DNA of 45,925 bases. It comes from a virus. This document shows positions 16,419 to 42,395 of this stretch, in pieces. The position numbers and the translations under genes were made by a program. Positions within the stretch are counted from its first letter, which is position 1. The number at the start of each line of letters is the position of its first letter. The stretch covers positions 1-45,925 of the IMG/VR virus record IMGVR_UViG_3300042462_000287. One strand, given 5' to 3'. A model generated the notes under the pieces. The model was not told the DNA's origin, did no database searches, and saw only the letters and a program-made list of their open reading frames with translations.

Positions 16419-16764
16419 TTTCCCTTCAGGAATTGCGGTTAAAGCCGATAAGGCAACTTATTGGATTAAAGACGGAAAGAGATATAAACTGATTTCGGAC
16501 AGGGCTTCAAAGTCTTGGTCATTTGCTACAGCAAATGCAACAGAAGAGGCATTATCGTTAATCAAGATTGCAGGAAAACTTGGGTTTAGAGACGGCTCTT
16601 TGATAAAGAATATAGCAGATGGTAAAATATATTTAATATCACAAAATAAAAAGAGACATATTGTAGACCCAGATTCATTTACTAAATACGGCCTAGATAG
16701 ATCAAAGGTTATAGAGGTAAGCGAGTCGGAATCAAATGCTCATGATTTAGGAGAAAATTTATAA
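16351..16764 (+). CDS. Protein with two YWI/YLI-type surface repeats
   Basis: About 137 residues. The start is uncertain: an ATG at 16351 or a GTG at 16366, the latter preceded by AGCAGGA. Both overlap the previous small gene in another frame. The core has two repeats of about 45 residues. The first has KADKATYWIKDGKRYKLISD and the second has DGKIYLISQNKKRHIVDP followed by SFTKYGLD. This pattern (G-x-x-Y-x-I-x-x-G-K-R-x-x-I) is known from short repeats in bacterial and phage surface or lysis proteins, where it is often joined to enzymes. The stop shares one base with the next ATG (TAATG). A virion-surface or wall-binding role is inferred. Confidence 0.65.
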   Translation: MKSRNVKSLFKNTQTLLITSPTNFPSGIAVKADKATYWIKDGKRYKLISDRASKSWSFATANATEEALSLIKIAGKLGFRDGSLIKNIADGKIYLISQNKKRHIVDPDSFTKYGLDRSKVIEVSESESNAHDLGENL

Positions 16765-17198
16765 TGGCAGAAACATGGAAGTCCGTAGTATTCAATGAGG
16801 GTGCCCCACTAGATCCTAATGATTTAAATCAATTACAAACTAATTTAACAAACGTATTTAACACATCTAAGTCTTTATTAAACGCAACTAAAGATGCTTC
16901 TGGTACAAATAGAGTTGCAATTATTGACTCAAATGTAGAAACAATTCCTCTTAGCGGGAAGGCAAACATAGCCTCCGCAGCGTTCCCAGTAACATTTAGC
17001 TCTTCATTTAATTCTGGAACCGAGATATCATTTACAGCCTCTGTAGGAGACGTACCATTATCTGGAGCTGGAGTCATATCTGTTGCAGCCGTTGTAACAC
17101 CTGGAACTTTAAGCGGTAAGATATATGTTACAACTAGTTTAGCAAAGGCTGGTTCGGTTAAAGTAAACTGGATTGCAGCTCAATTAAAAGACATTTAA
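16764..17198 (+). CDS. Small tail-fibre-like structural protein
   Basis: 144 residues, ATG overlapping the previous TAA by one base. The N-terminal 45 residues (FNEGAPLDPNDLNQLQTNL) resemble the short helical anchor that begins many phage fibre proteins (W-x-x-x-x-x-x-E-x-x-L-D-x-x-x-L-N-x-L). The rest is a Ser/Val/Ala-rich beta domain (VTFSSSFNSGTEISFTASVG) ending WIAAQLKDI. No Cys, signal peptide or membrane segment. It is the last gene of the tail block, just before the terminator. Likely a minor virion protein; the receptor is unknown. Confidence 0.65.
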   Translation: MAETWKSVVFNEGAPLDPNDLNQLQTNLTNVFNTSKSLLNATKDASGTNRVAIIDSNVETIPLSGKANIASAAFPVTFSSSFNSGTEISFTASVGDVPLSGAGVISVAAVVTPGTLSGKIYVTTSLAKAGSVKVNWIAAQLKDI

Positions 17199-17201
17199 TA
17201 C

Positions 17202-17229
17202 TTGACGATATCTAACAATATGCTACAAT
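17202..17229 (+). promoter_or_regulatory. Promoter: TTGACG - 16 bp - TACAAT
   Basis: TTGACG at 17202-17207 and TACAAT at 17224-17229 give a good consensus promoter immediately after the tail block. Its predicted start point (about 17236) is only eight bases before the hairpin at 17244, so transcripts would begin with a terminator-like structure. Confidence 0.6.
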
Positions 17230-17243
17230 TCCATGTAGTATGT

Positions 17244-17268
17244 AAAGTCACGAAACCGTGACTTTTTT
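17244..17268 (+). terminator. Rho-independent terminator after the tail genes
   Basis: A perfect 9-bp stem, AAAGTCACG with CGTGACTTT, closes a 4-base AAAC loop and runs into a T tract. It separates the tail operon from the replication block. Confidence 0.85.
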
Positions 17269-17285
17269 AATTTAAGGGACAAAGA

Positions 17286-18101
17286 ATGTCAAATGATTTA
17301 AAATGGATGCTCTCATCAGATCAGCAATTTCCTTACCAAGATGATAAAATGATTGAGCTCTGGTTTAAAGTAATGAAATGGTTTAAGCCAGACGTTGTAG
17401 ACTACCTCGGCGATACAGACGATCAGGCATGCTACAGCAAGTATACTGACGGTAAACCAACAGAATTTTTAAAGGCATACAAGAACGATGATGTAACTAA
17501 TGACTTAGAGTTAATGCTAAAAGATATGAAGATTGAAGCAAGCGGTGCTAGAGAATTTTATGCTAGGACAAGAAAAATGCTTCCTAATGCACAATTGTTT
17601 TCGGCATTGGGAAACCATGACATTAGAATTTTTGATTATCTTGATAAGAAAATTCCAGAGTATGCAAAGCATGTTACTCCAGAAGCTTTATGGAGTTTAG
17701 ATTCTTTAGGATATGACTATATATACTACGACAGTTTACCGAAGAAAAGATTTGGAGATATCCATGTTCATCATGGACTTTCAATATCAGCAACTGGGGC
17801 AGTAAGAAAAGATATGGAAGATATGCAGGTTTCATTAATTAGAGGACATTCTCATAGAATTGCTTCTCATATGGTAACCTACGAACTTAGAAATAACGGT
17901 AAAGGCGAAACCCTTAGAGGATATGAAATTGGTCACATGTGTGACGAAAAGGGTCCAGGAATGAAGTACACTCAACATCATGATTGGCAAAAAGGATTTG
18001 CTATAGCACATATTGAAAATGGAAAATACCCACACGTACAAATGATACATGTATCTCCAAATTATACATGCGTAGTTGATGGAAAGATGTTTGCCTTATA
18101 A
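17286..18101 (+). CDS. Calcineurin-like metallophosphoesterase
   Basis: 271 residues, ATG preceded by AAGGGAC. It carries the metal-binding signature of the calcineurin-like phosphoesterase fold: D12-Q-Q14, GD43-T-D-D46, GNH111D, HH163G and GH188SH190. The first motif is D-x-Q rather than the classical D-x-H, a change found in some phage relatives, so one metal ligand differs. Such enzymes hydrolyse phosphodiesters or phosphomonoesters with two metal ions; phage copies may act on DNA ends, cyclic nucleotides or RNA. The substrate cannot be read. The stop shares a base with the next ATG. First gene of the replication block and probably early. Confidence 0.85.
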   Translation: MSNDLKWMLSSDQQFPYQDDKMIELWFKVMKWFKPDVVDYLGDTDDQACYSKYTDGKPTEFLKAYKNDDVTNDLELMLKDMKIEASGAREFYARTRKMLPNAQLFSALGNHDIRIFDYLDKKIPEYAKHVTPEALWSLDSLGYDYIYYDSLPKKRFGDIHVHHGLSISATGAVRKDMEDMQVSLIRGHSHRIASHMVTYELRNNGKGETLRGYEIGHMCDEKGPGMKYTQHHDWQKGFAIAHIENGKYPHVQMIHVSPNYTCVVDGKMFAL

Positions 18102-18286
18102 TGTGGTGTCAAAAATGTAAAGGAAGAGTTTTTGTAGATAGAGTGTTTTCTCAAAAACTTCACATAGAACTTTTTTGCATTCTTTGTGGAAAAAGATGGA
18201 TGATTAACAAAGAGACGAATAGGTTTGGTAAATGGTTAGAAAAAAAAGATCAGGCATACGCAAAAAGTTCCTCTATTTCTTCTTAA
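18101..18286 (+). CDS. Small zinc-ribbon protein
   Basis: 61 residues, ATG overlapping the previous stop by one base. Two Cys pairs (C3-x-x-C6 and C26-x-x-C29) in WCQKC and FCILCGKRW make a typical zinc-ribbon knuckle pair about 20 residues apart. The remainder is short, basic and helical (TNRFGKWLEKKD). It is probably nucleic-acid or protein binding. The 3' end overlaps the start of the next gene by 55 nt in another frame. Function unknown. Confidence 0.7.
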   Translation: MWCQKCKGRVFVDRVFSQKLHIELFCILCGKRWMINKETNRFGKWLEKKDQAYAKSSSISS

Positions 18287-18711
18287 ACGATAAATTACAT
18301 AAAGTAATTAGATCGTCTAGGGCGAAAGACGAACTAGTAGCATGGTCATACCTAGATAAAAAAAGAGTCCTGTACTCATTTTCAGATGTACAAAAGAATA
18401 TGGAAACAGCATATACAATGAAACAAGCTGGACAAATATTGGGCAGGCACAAAGTTACAATTGAAGAGTATATACTTCAAGGTAAAATAAGCAAACCTCA
18501 GAAAGTATACCCAATAAGTAATCCAGATAGCAGATGGTATAAATTTATGTTTAGTGAATCTAGTATACTTAAAATACACGAGTATATACTTGAGGCTGGA
18601 TATTCTAAAAATTTACCCTCAAAGGCAGAATTACAGGCCCTTCTCAAACACAACATGATATTGTATACTAAGACCGTTGACGGTTTCGTGCCAGTATGGA
18701 AGGCGGAGTAA
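18232..18711 (+). CDS. Helix-turn-helix (MerR-like) DNA-binding protein
   Basis: 159 residues, ATG at 18232 with AGGTTTGG upstream, inside the end of the zinc-ribbon gene. A basic N-terminus (VRKKRSGIRKKF) precedes a winged-helix or excisionase-like domain near residues 60-130: AYTMKQAGQILGRHKVTIEE followed by YILQGKISKPQKVYPI, the pattern of MerR/helix-turn-helix_17 proteins that read promoter or origin DNA. Residues SSILKIHEYILEAGY form a final helix. Position at the head of the replication genes fits an origin-binding or early regulatory role; this is inference. Confidence 0.65.
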   Translation: MVRKKRSGIRKKFLYFFLNDKLHKVIRSSRAKDELVAWSYLDKKRVLYSFSDVQKNMETAYTMKQAGQILGRHKVTIEEYILQGKISKPQKVYPISNPDSRWYKFMFSESSILKIHEYILEAGYSKNLPSKAELQALLKHNMILYTKTVDGFVPVWKAE

Positions 18712-22523: not shown

Positions 22524-22535
22524 ACTAAATAGACT

Positions 22536-22568
22536 TAGGGGTGGCTATTGCCACCCCTAGTTTTATTT
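22536..22568 (+). terminator. Strong terminator after the SSB-like gene
   Basis: A 10-bp GC-rich stem (TAGGGGTGGC with GCCACCCCTA) closes a 4-base TATT loop and is followed by TTTTATTT. Its loop and right arm also contain the -35 box of the next promoter. Confidence 0.9.
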
Positions 22569-22576
22569 AGTAGAAT
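22548..22576 (+). promoter_or_regulatory. Promoter TTGCCA - 17 bp - TAGAAT, leaderless
   Basis: TTGCCA (22548-22553) lies in the terminator loop and right arm; TAGAAT (22571-22576) is 17 bp downstream. The predicted start point, 22583, coincides with the A of the next ATG and no Shine-Dalgarno is seen, so a leaderless mRNA is predicted. Confidence 0.7.
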
Positions 22577-22582
22577 CCATAT

Positions 22583-26306: not shown

Positions 26307-26376
26307 AACCCCTACTCCTATTTTAAATAAAAGGTCAAAAGACTTTAATTATAATGACACAGAGCCTGATTTTAAT

Positions 26377-26384
26377 GCTATAAT
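26377..26384 (+). promoter_or_regulatory. Extended -10 promoter TGCTATAAT before recA
   Basis: TATAAT at 26379-26384 with a preceding TGC, predicted start about 26391, 16 bases before the ATG at 26407. Upstream ATGACA (26354-26359) is a possible but widely spaced -35 (19 bp). Confidence 0.7.
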
Positions 26385-26406
26385 GGGCATATAGAGAAAG
26401 AAAACA

Positions 26407-37530: not shown

Positions 37531-38970
37531 TTGATAATTTTAGGAATTAATGAAACTTCCCATGACGCTTCTGTATCTTTAATTAAAGATGGAGACATAT
37601 TATTTTCTGGGCATGCCGAAAGATATAGTAAGCAAAAAAATGATTGGTTTACAAATGATAGTTTAATTAAAGATGCATTAGAGTACGGGTATCCAGATAA
37701 AATAGCCTATTATGAAAACAGATGGCTAAAGAAGGCCCGTATAGCCATTCATGGCGGGTTTGGTGGTGACAAGCCATACTTTCTTCAAACACCCCTTAAA
37801 AAAATTCCTAGGGCTTCCTTTGGGCATCACAAATCCCATGCAGCAGCAGGATACTACACAAGTAATTATACAGATGCGGTTATTGTAGTTTTAGATGCAA
37901 TTGGAGAATTTAATACTTCTACGGTATGGGTGGGAGAAGGATCTAACATTAAACAAGTTTACAAACAAAACTACCCTGTAAGCTTTGGACTTTTTTATTC
38001 CGCATTTACTCAGCTTATAGGGTTAATGCCAAATCAAGAAGAATACATTATGATGGGAATGGCTGGTTACGGAGACTGGACAAAATATTATAAACAGGTA
38101 GATAATTATTTCCCTAAATATGATAAACAAAAATATAATTTTCACAAAGGCATTACTGATTGGGGATGGGTTTCAGAGCAAGACAAGTTTGATATTGCCG
38201 CAGCAGTTCAGGTAGTTTATGAGCAAAGGCTTATAGACTTTATGAATATGGCTAAATCAATAACAAGAAAAACAAATTTAGTTTTTATGGGAGGATGTGC
38301 CCTTAACTGTTCTGCTAATACATTGCTATGGAAAATATTTGATAGCGTTTGGATTATGCCTAACCCAGGAGATGCTGGTAGCTCATTAGGCGCAGCAGCG
38401 TTATTGTATGGCAAGCATTTAAATTGGAGTGGCCCCTATCTTGGATATAATTTATCAGGTGAATATCCCGTTAATGAAATTGTTGATGAGATATTAACAA
38501 ATAAAATAGTAGCGGTAGCAAACGGAAGAGCAGAATACGGACCTAGAGCGTTGGGCAATAGGAGCATACTGGCAGACCCCAGAGACCCAGACATTAAAGA
38601 TAAAGTTAATTTAATTAAACAAAGAGAAAATTTTAGGCCGTTTGCCCCAGTAATTATGGAAGAATGTGCTAGTGAATGGTTTGAAATGAATTTTACTTCA
38701 CCATACATGCAATATGCCGTAAAATGTAAAAAACCAGATTTAATACCCTCTGTTGTTCACGTAGATGGAACGTCTAGAGTGCAGACAGTAAACAGAGAAC
38801 AGCATCGAGGCTTGTGGCGTGTTTTAAATAAATTTTATCAAGAAACAGGTGTGCCAGTTTTATTAAATACTAGCCTAAATATAAAGGGTCAGCCACTTAT
38901 TAATGATAAAAATGATATCATTGACTGGCAGCAGCATTATAAGTATAATATACTAACTGGGCAACAGTAG
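37531..38970 (+). CDS. Carbamoyltransferase, NodU/TobZ/HypF family
   Basis: 479 residues from TTG 37531 (second base of a MIILGINETSHDASVSLI start, the family's normal beginning). Kae1-like metal site: H99/H103 in GHHKSHAAAGYY, D122 (VVLDAIGE) and D281 (NPGDAGSSLGAA). The C-terminal YrdC-like part carries EYGPRALGNRSILADPR and the RPFAPVIMEE block. The reaction adds a carbamoyl group from carbamoyl phosphate, by way of carbamoyl-AMP, to a sugar hydroxyl or similar. The C-terminus is shorter than usual and ends at a stop that lies within the tRNA gene, so it may have been truncated by that insertion. Confidence 0.88.
   Translation: MIILGINETSHDASVSLIKDGDILFSGHAERYSKQKNDWFTNDSLIKDALEYGYPDKIAYYENRWLKKARIAIHGGFGGDKPYFLQTPLKKIPRASFGHHKSHAAAGYYTSNYTDAVIVVLDAIGEFNTSTVWVGEGSNIKQVYKQNYPVSFGLFYSAFTQLIGLMPNQEEYIMMGMAGYGDWTKYYKQVDNYFPKYDKQKYNFHKGITDWGWVSEQDKFDIAAAVQVVYEQRLIDFMNMAKSITRKTNLVFMGGCALNCSANTLLWKIFDSVWIMPNPGDAGSSLGAAALLYGKHLNWSGPYLGYNLSGEYPVNEIVDEILTNKIVAVANGRAEYGPRALGNRSILADPRDPDIKDKVNLIKQRENFRPFAPVIMEECASEWFEMNFTSPYMQYAVKCKKPDLIPSVVHVDGTSRVQTVNREQHRGLWRVLNKFYQETGVPVLLNTSLNIKGQPLINDKNDIIDWQQHYKYNILTGQQ
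38921..38949 (+). promoter_or_regulatory. tRNA promoter TTGACT - 17 bp - TATAAT inside the carbamoyltransferase end
   Basis: TTGACT (38921-38926) and TATAAT (38944-38949) with an ideal 17-bp spacer lie inside the carbamoyltransferase coding end. The predicted start is 38956, five bases before the tRNA gene at 38961. Confidence 0.8.
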
Positions 38971-39034
38971 CTTAGTTGGTTAAAGCCCCGAACTCATAAT
39001 TCGGTAACCGTAGGTTCGAGTCCTACCTGTTGTA
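38961..39034 (+). tRNA. tRNA with CAU anticodon (Met elongator or Ile2)
   Basis: A full 74-nt cloverleaf: acceptor GCAACAG with CTGTTGT (first pair G-U), D arm GCTT/AAGC, anticodon stem CCGAA/TTCGG around loop CTCATAA (CAU at 38995-38997), T arm GTAGG/CCTAC with TTCGAGT, discriminator A; CCA is not encoded. It lacks the initiator features (mismatch at 1-72 of C-A type, three G-C pairs in the anticodon stem), so it is an elongator Met or a lysidine-modified Ile tRNA. Its first 10 nt overlap the upstream gene's end. Confidence 0.93.
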
Positions 39035-39046
39035 CAAGGAGATATT

Positions 39047-41157: not shown

Positions 41158-41166
41158 TGATATAAT
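41158..41166 (+). promoter_or_regulatory. Extended -10 promoter TGATATAAT before hsp20
   Basis: TATAAT at 41161-41166 preceded by TGA. Predicted start about 41173, giving a ~50-nt leader with a strong GAAAGGGG site before the ATG at 41225. No clear -35. Confidence 0.65.
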
Positions 41167-41173
41167 AATATAT

Positions 41174-41224
41174 AGGTCGCCGAATGGGGCCTAATTTAAA
41201 TTATTCGCTTGAAAGGGGAATAAA
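41174..41224 (+). promoter_or_regulatory. Structured hsp20 5' leader (candidate thermosensor)
   Basis: The leader has a 5-bp stem AGGTC/GGGCCT-type near 41174-41192, CGAAT (41181-41185) that can pair with ATTCG (41203-41207), and a 12-bp palindrome TAATTTAAATTA at 41192-41203, all ahead of AAGGGG. The alternatives compete. A heat-sensitive fold is possible but no direct pairing to the ribosome site is clear. Confidence 0.3.
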
Positions 41225-41632
41225 ATGGTAACAAAACTTGCTATGGATCTTTTCAATGATCCATTTTTTATTGGATGGGATACAAATTTTGCAAAAATGC
41301 AATCTTCAAACTCTAACTATCCAATTTACGATCTAGTCAAATTCGATAATGGTGCCTACGGCATTAGCTTGGCAATTGCTGGATTCCAACGTGAAGACAT
41401 TAGTATTCACATTGAAAATAATAATTTAGTAATTAAAGGTGAATTACACGGAGAACACTGGGATGGAGAATATATCCACGAAGGAATTGCCAAAAGAAAT
41501 TTTGAAAGGTCATTTTCATTAGGAGAATATATGGAAGTTGATCTTGCCGAAATGAAAGATGGCATGCTCCATATACACATTAGTAAAAATGTCCCTGAAG
41601 AGAAAAAACCAAAAGTCATCAAGATCAAATAA
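41225..41632 (+). CDS. Small heat shock protein (Hsp20/IbpA-like chaperone)
   Basis: 135 residues, ATG with AAGGGGAATAA upstream. The alpha-crystallin domain spans about residues 35-125, with ISLAIAGFQREDISIHIENN, GIAKRNFERSF and the family's LADGMLHI-like MKDGMLHIHI. The C-terminal tail has an I-x-I motif (VIKIK) used for oligomer assembly. An ATP-independent holdase. Phage copies are thought to help virion folding or protect host proteins during infection. Own promoter and leader. Followed by the structured RNA. Confidence 0.93.
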   Translation: MVTKLAMDLFNDPFFIGWDTNFAKMQSSNSNYPIYDLVKFDNGAYGISLAIAGFQREDISIHIENNNLVIKGELHGEHWDGEYIHEGIAKRNFERSFSLGEYMEVDLAEMKDGMLHIHISKNVPEEKKPKVIKIK

Positions 41633-41636
41633 ATAG

Positions 41637-41642
41637 TATAAT
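41637..41642 (+). promoter_or_regulatory. -10 box TATAAT before the structured leader
   Basis: TATAAT at 41637-41642 lies right after the hsp20 stop. Start predicted near 41649, just inside the structured RNA. No TG or good -35 is seen, so strength is uncertain. Confidence 0.45.
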
Positions 41643-41645
41643 AAG

Positions 41646-41728
41646 AACCTGCACCCCTTCATCGGGGAGTCGCAGGTTATTCGGGTCGCTACCCGAAGGA
41701 TGGACCTGAGCACGTCCGCAAACTGCTC
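41646..41728 (+). ncRNA. GC-rich structured RNA / leader of the thermonuclease gene
   Basis: A 7-bp stem AACCTGC (41646-41652) / GCAGGTT (41672-41678) encloses an inner CCCC/GGGG hairpin. A second hairpin TTCGGGT/ACCCGAA (41680-41697) has a CGCT tetraloop. Further pairing is possible as GGAC/GTCC (41702-41717), or alternatively GAGCA/TGCTC (41708-41728). The stretch is far more GC-rich than its neighbours and shows no reading frame of note. Terminator T tract is absent. It sits 20 nt before the GGAG and ATG of the nuclease gene, so a cis-acting leader or processed small RNA is likely. No known family is recognised. Confidence 0.6.
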
Positions 41729-41748
41729 TTTAATATTTTAGGAGAATA

Positions 41749-42336: not shown

Positions 42337-42357
42337 CTAAGACTATTTAAATAGGTA

Positions 42358-42395
42358 TACATGATATAATCTTCATGTAACAAAAATTTTGTTAC
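42358..42395 (+). promoter_or_regulatory. Promoter TGATATAAT flanked by two inverted repeats
   Basis: The -10 TATAAT (42365-42370, with TGA before it) lies within a perfect 7-bp inverted repeat: TACATGA (42358-42364) and TCATGTA (42373-42379), separated by eight bases. It overlaps a second dyad, GTAACAAAA (42377-42385) and TTTTGTTAC (42387-42395), downstream. Both are operator-like. The -35 is weak. Confidence 0.7.

Follow-up and report, generated by a model that had tools for sequence, protein, structure and literature searches.

A conserved promoter nested in a putative intrinsic terminator between the tail-side and replication genes of phages related to actinobacteriophages

Described systems and the layout of the locus

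The closest described systems are the Q late promoters of lambda and 21, with their terminator tR', and the AlpA promoter with its terminator tB, in which an operon-blocking intrinsic terminator stands after the promoter (PMC6606751, PMC7969949), tB beginning 54 nt after the transcription start (PMC7969949). In phage HK022, the putL leader RNA is a structured RNA located just past an early promoter, and putRNA is described as about 70 nt long, with two stem-loops, and able to suppress termination (PMC9378689). The SAS/ESAS elements of cluster K mycobacteriophages are conserved inverted repeats beside the start codons of non-structural genes; the repeat measures 13 bp and occurs in many copies per genome, and its authors saw little support for RNA pairing (PMC3203893).

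In the window, i.e., the whole 45,925-nt stretch of viral DNA that was analysed, a compact module fills positions 17199-17285 on the plus strand, between the stop codon of the final tail-side gene and the ATG, at 17286, of a metallophosphoesterase (MPE) gene (17286-18101, plus strand; PHROG 221, E 2.6e-54) that opens the replication block. The function of the tail-side gene (16764-17198, plus strand) is unassigned, a family search of its protein gave no match and, as for the other tail-side genes of the window, its naming relies only on synteny with annotated phages. Gene order, from minor tail proteins through small genes, the MPE, a helix-turn-helix (HTH) protein, a DnaB-like helicase, a primase and SSB to the DNA polymerase, is that of the Rhodococcus phages Weasels2, Trina and NiceHouse and of the Streptomyces phage Comrade. 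The two gene blocks are separated by a predicted sigma-A-type promoter: three bases after the tail-side stop codon comes the -35 element TTGACG (17202-17207, plus strand), whose TTGAC is invariant in 49 aligned relatives, then a spacer of 16 bases and the -10 TACAAT (17224-17229), which together with TG at 17221-17222 gives an extended -10, TGCTACAAT (TG-n-TACAAT, 17221-17229, plus strand), seen both by direct reading and in the alignment. Further along the plus strand lie hairpin B, AAAGTCACG-AAAC-CGTGACTTT (17244-17265), with nine perfect pairs, identified by direct reading, folding and covariation; a T6 tract (17263-17268), the putative tail of an intrinsic terminator, three T of which belong to stem B; and a Shine-Dalgarno sequence AAGGGA (17274-17279), aligned in relatives as an AAGG-type motif. 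An earlier note had reported the promoter, the perfect 9-bp hairpin and the T tract, and direct re-reading confirmed their coordinates. Absent from that note was dyad A (17218-17243, plus strand), revealed by folding, covariation and arm swapping, in which ATATGCTACA (17218-17227) pairs with TGTAGTATGT (17234-17243); it encloses the -10, overlaps the start site and abuts the terminator.

A U-run after a stem is the signature of termination, and the module indeed resembles an intrinsic terminator in its stable hairpin, maintained by compensatory changes, directly before six T. It differs from one in lying about 8 nt past the start, in having the -10 in a neighbouring hairpin and in being followed immediately by a Shine-Dalgarno sequence; the U-run, present here, is missing from one class of related loci (L008 type) and poor in several Streptomyces phages. 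Its hairpin is far closer to the start than the tB of AlpA (PMC7969949). No loading site or antiterminator of the Q/AlpA kind was identified at the module, and the -35/-10 spacer, considered with regard to a factor-binding element within the promoter, is unconserved except for a few bases in the 49 aligned relatives. Unlike the HK022 put RNA, the local RNA consists of one hairpin and a U-run, the second hairpin being confined to upstream RNA; unlike SAS/ESAS, the module covaries and is single-copy (11 of 12 phage records). Features of a leader-RNA attenuator, whether leader peptide or riboswitch, were not found, with no alternative antiterminator pairing, only about 8 nt before the hairpin and no Rfam match.

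Conservation of order and spacing among relatives

In this A+T-rich region, a promoter or terminator motif alone proves nothing, since the surrounding 15 kb contains 63 promoter-like sites vs 59.7 ± 8.9 in shuffled sequences, and 7 terminator-like sites vs 6.7 ± 2.5. It is the conservation of order and spacing among relatives that makes the module real beyond chance. A search with the MPE protein yielded 572 related stretches, the best 80 of which were taken as the locus set. Promoter, hairpin and T-run are kept in this order at 60 of these best 80 of 572, at near-fixed spacing (-10 and stem 9-16 nt apart, stem and ATG 18-22 nt apart). Nine of the 80 combine the promoter with a hairpin followed by few U (L008, L013, L015, L018-L020, L035-L037), and at the six of the L008 type the hairpin is retained without a U-run. 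Nine more have a promoter without a clean stem: seven (L038-L044) lack the hairpin, and two (L023, L030) were classed as promoter only on account of a hairpin that is imperfect. The promoter was not found at two of the best 80, namely L069, where neither promoter nor hairpin was seen at the locus, and L075, where 39 bases remain upstream before the contig end and the hairpin and T-run are visible.

A pattern search with the hairpin core and T-run, whose contigs overlap the MPE-derived set, gave at least 120 stretches; all 80 of the matches listed precede an MPE gene (78 by tblastn, 2 partial ones with the MPE N-terminus visible), and their promoters are of the TTGA type in 79 cases and TTTACA in one. 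A covariance model matched 11 of 12 long phage records strongly, once each, the next match having an E of 0.088, and found no copy in the twelfth (G003), which led us to reject a repeated genomic motif. Chance or artefact was likewise rejected, since many contigs preserve the element and show compensatory changes in it. On this comparative evidence, the promoter-then-hairpin order is kept by selection in a large phage group related to actinobacteriophages. The Rfam search recognised only tRNA and gave no match to the module, of which no description appeared among the papers listed by searches of the open-licence PMC set. The cis-element is real, conserved and apparently undescribed; its general kind, the promoter-proximal intrinsic terminator, is known, and its nested layout is unusual. 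Elsewhere in the window, a tRNA-Met (CAT) gene occupies 38961-39035, with a TTGACT-17-TATAAT promoter immediately upstream.

Streptomyces phages (Comrade and 12 further ones) were also compared. A TTGAC-type promoter, a strong hairpin, a Shine-Dalgarno sequence and the MPE gene occur in the same layout in 10 of the 13; stems differ in sequence from phage to phage, and in several the U-run is short or missing, with terminator scores of -46 to +13 on our own approximation of a published formula, to be read as relative values only. A membrane-protein gene intervenes in Faust, Wakanda and Muntaha, where the promoter is retained without a hairpin, and in the three Rhodococcus phages read the MPE gene or its neighbour is not preceded by a gap of this kind. 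Across relatives, the promoter is thus the most constant part, the hairpin the next and the U-run the least.

Lineages with a hairpin devoid of T-run, or with the promoter only, leave room for a 5'-leader role, the strongest rival explanation, although we consider it improbable. Hairpin B would then cap the 5' end of the MPE mRNA, controlling its stability or its translation near the Shine-Dalgarno sequence, and the T-run would be secondary. The L008-type loci, which keep the hairpin without U-run, are in line with this, as are the 10 of 13 Streptomyces phages with hairpins of other stems, some almost without U, and the promoters before genes 41225 and 42396 of the window, which also precede 5' hairpins without U-run. 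Such a role predicts neither the near-invariant T-run adjoining the stem at 60 of the best 80 of 572 loci nor the covarying dyad A, which lies outside the local mRNA.

Hairpin B, dyad A and the RNAs able to form them

Hairpin B was assessed in an alignment (A1) of 49 distinct sequences, from which the divergent L035 and L037 were excluded. In these relatives, 96.8% of its cells are paired and double changes occur at six of the nine pairs, in 21 cells vs 3.6 in shuffles, a count possibly inflated by sequence kinship. Its stability is -10.6 kcal/mol; loop and leader sequences vary, stem changes maintain pairing, and the T-run is near-invariant amid variable flanks. A T6 directly after a stem, kept while its flanks vary, is best explained by termination. 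Hairpin B scores +11.7 on the approximate, relative scale, with a mean of +6.4 over 95 relatives, vs +33.8 for the terminator before gene 42396 in one relative; it is predicted to be a moderate terminator, and leakage through it is expected. The assertion that transcripts would stop at once was therefore overstated, a score of this size fitting partial stopping.

The predicted transcription start, 17236 (plus strand), lies 7 nt after the -10 and 8 bases before hairpin B; its base is T, and transcription could equally well begin at one of the adjacent purines, 17235 and 17237. Support for such a spacing comes from the polymerase-side gene 22583, where 26 of 29 distinct relatives have a -10 that precedes the ATG by 6-7 nt and the remaining three a tRNA-like sequence instead; judged by this spacing, the polymerase-side promoter is a leaderless start. 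The position near 17236 proposed in the earlier note, eight bases ahead of the hairpin, is consistent, as a predicted position, with the 7-nt spacing in the same phage group. RNA from about 17236 ending in the U-run would measure about 33-36 nt, and a 53-nt local leader folds into hairpin B alone, both as MFE and as centroid structure.

Of the cells of dyad A, 79.8% were paired, and double changes affected 22 cells vs 7.1 in shuffles; the numbers of pairs with double changes (3) and of pair types (10), two of five measures of covariation, were not above shuffles. Arms folded with their own partners gave a mean of -5.59 kcal/mol vs -4.06 ± 0.14 when exchanged among relatives (best of 200 swaps -4.46 kcal/mol; 98 of 99 distinct modules, L023/L030 unparsed), and no hairpin folded in 13 of the 98 modules; common descent weakens these tests. 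Loop length is variable (mostly 5-7 nt), a variation easier to reconcile with paired RNA than with an operator of fixed spacing, and a protein site of the latter kind is disfavoured here. The right arm reads TAGTAT/TAACAT, a -10-like sequence just beyond the start. An overlapping minus-strand promoter built on this arm was considered by eye only; in right arms with longer loops, the final T of its -10 would be missing.

In upstream-derived RNA, A and B fold side by side (z -3.81), whereas RNA starting locally begins within the right arm of A, so that B folds and A cannot. As dyad A covaries and can fold in RNA from upstream only, termination of the upstream operon probably belongs to the functions of the module. 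It could even be the sole function: hairpin B, with A, would end tail-side transcription while local transcripts pass almost freely, without real attenuation. The covarying dyad available solely to upstream RNA and the merely moderate score of B favour this explanation. By contrast, hairpin B forms fully in local RNA, and a pure boundary would be expected to have its terminator first and its promoter second, an arrangement seen in many relatives at gene 42396; the reverse is kept here, and we find this explanation rather unlikely. The terminator-first order at gene 42396 indicates that the group does not keep exclusively to the order seen at MPE.

The nesting of promoter parts in hairpins was also seen elsewhere. 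At 22524-22582, the -35 of the leaderless promoter, TTGCCA (TTGACT in relatives), lies in a GC-rich hairpin with a short T-run, and stem and -35 co-change across relatives; hairpin-nested promoter parts at the MPE and polymerase sides may thus be a general design. At 26370-26390, another extended -10 lies within a short dyad, ATGCTATAATGGGCAT. At 42337-42395, before gene 42396, a -10 inside a dyad is followed by the hairpin GTAACAAAAATTTTGTTAC, many relatives carrying instead a clear terminator and then a promoter.

Other structured stretches were noted near gene 41225, which we take to be hsp20. Positions 41161-41231 comprise a promoter, a 5' hairpin whose stem differs between relatives and another hairpin that covers the Shine-Dalgarno sequence of this gene, where the UUCGCUU/AGGGG pairing presumably recalls ROSE-type RNA thermometers. 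A hairpin with T6 at 41243-41270, inside the first codons of the gene, is also found in G010 (90228) and G002 (28730, minus strand) and may follow from the protein sequence. The intergenic stretch 41640-41740 is strongly structured, the whole gap 41633-41748 folding at -36.2 kcal/mol, and had no Rfam match.

Transcription entering the replication genes

The explanation that we favour, with slightly less than even confidence, is a compact operon-boundary element, in which a promoter nested in a moderate intrinsic terminator would end upstream transcripts and partly attenuate its own. From a mechanistic point of view, tail-side RNA would form A next to B and end at the U-run. RNA from about 17236 would begin in the right arm of A, could not form A and would meet B only; part of it would stop as a 33-36 nt species, the remainder reading on into the MPE, helicase, primase, SSB and polymerase genes. 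The nested terminator would keep late transcription out and hold the expression of the replication genes at a level that is either set or adjustable, the local promoter being throttled rather than abolished. Stopping of RNA polymerase at B, its frequency and any effect of a phage factor are what we infer in this scheme. One study reports that Mycobacterium tuberculosis RNA polymerase leaves many short transcripts and that the genome has few canonical intrinsic terminators (PMC10937400); to that extent, throttling and non-canonical behaviour are both plausible in the phylum.

Attenuation of the replication genes, already suggested in the earlier note, thus fits and is our leading reading, whereas the obligate antiterminator attached to it lacked support. 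The only lead in that direction is a protein encoded about 1 kb downstream of the module (18232-18711, plus strand), MerR-like in its HTH (Pfam HTH_17, E 0.0019, below cut-off) and SH3-like in its N-terminal part. Its structure model (pLDDT 82.6) matched MerR-type chains and SH3 folds, all weakly and none at E <= 0.001. The gene is common to Rhodococcus and Streptomyces phages, and we regard the protein as a candidate regulator, a lead only; its status as a proven antiterminator was not supported, as the gene occurs also where the module is absent.

Dedicated antitermination resembling that of lambda Q or AlpA, in which factor-loaded RNA polymerase would ignore B and later terminators and the replication genes would otherwise be off, appears to us quite unlikely. 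It shares its promoter-then-terminator logic with Q/AlpA (PMC7969949), and the -10-like right arm past the start is the kind of signal used by Q systems (PMC6606751); the MerR-like protein is also encoded nearby. However, Rhodococcus phages and L038-type loci, which lack the hairpin, carry its gene as well, and pairing with the left arm already explains the -10-like sequence. Somewhat less doubtful, yet still unlikely, is a directional valve set by the point at which RNA begins, the promoter being nested in tandem hairpins that would act as a full terminator for upstream RNA and a partial one for RNA starting within, possibly opened further by an antiterminator such as the SH3/MerR-like protein.

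The least probable explanation, which we consider very unlikely, makes the product an RNA of about 33 nt, acting as regulator or replication primer. A discrete short RNA would indeed form, and replication genes adjoin; but loop and leader vary, and stem changes preserve pairing rather than product sequence, so that the functional RNA of about 30 nt envisaged earlier found no support. As to a primer, cumulative GC skew extremes lie far from the module in two phage contigs of about 110 kb, on which ground a replication origin at the module was also rejected.

These results support a start-site rule for reading other promoters of these uncultured phages. Phages of this kind are many, mostly metagenome contigs, and share one regulatory element, which can be tested in isolated Streptomyces phages of the same layout (Comrade, Gilson and others). 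The module bears on whether a terminator a few nucleotides past the start acts as a throttle and, if our favoured explanation is true, one overlapping element would separate late from replication transcription in compact phage genomes.
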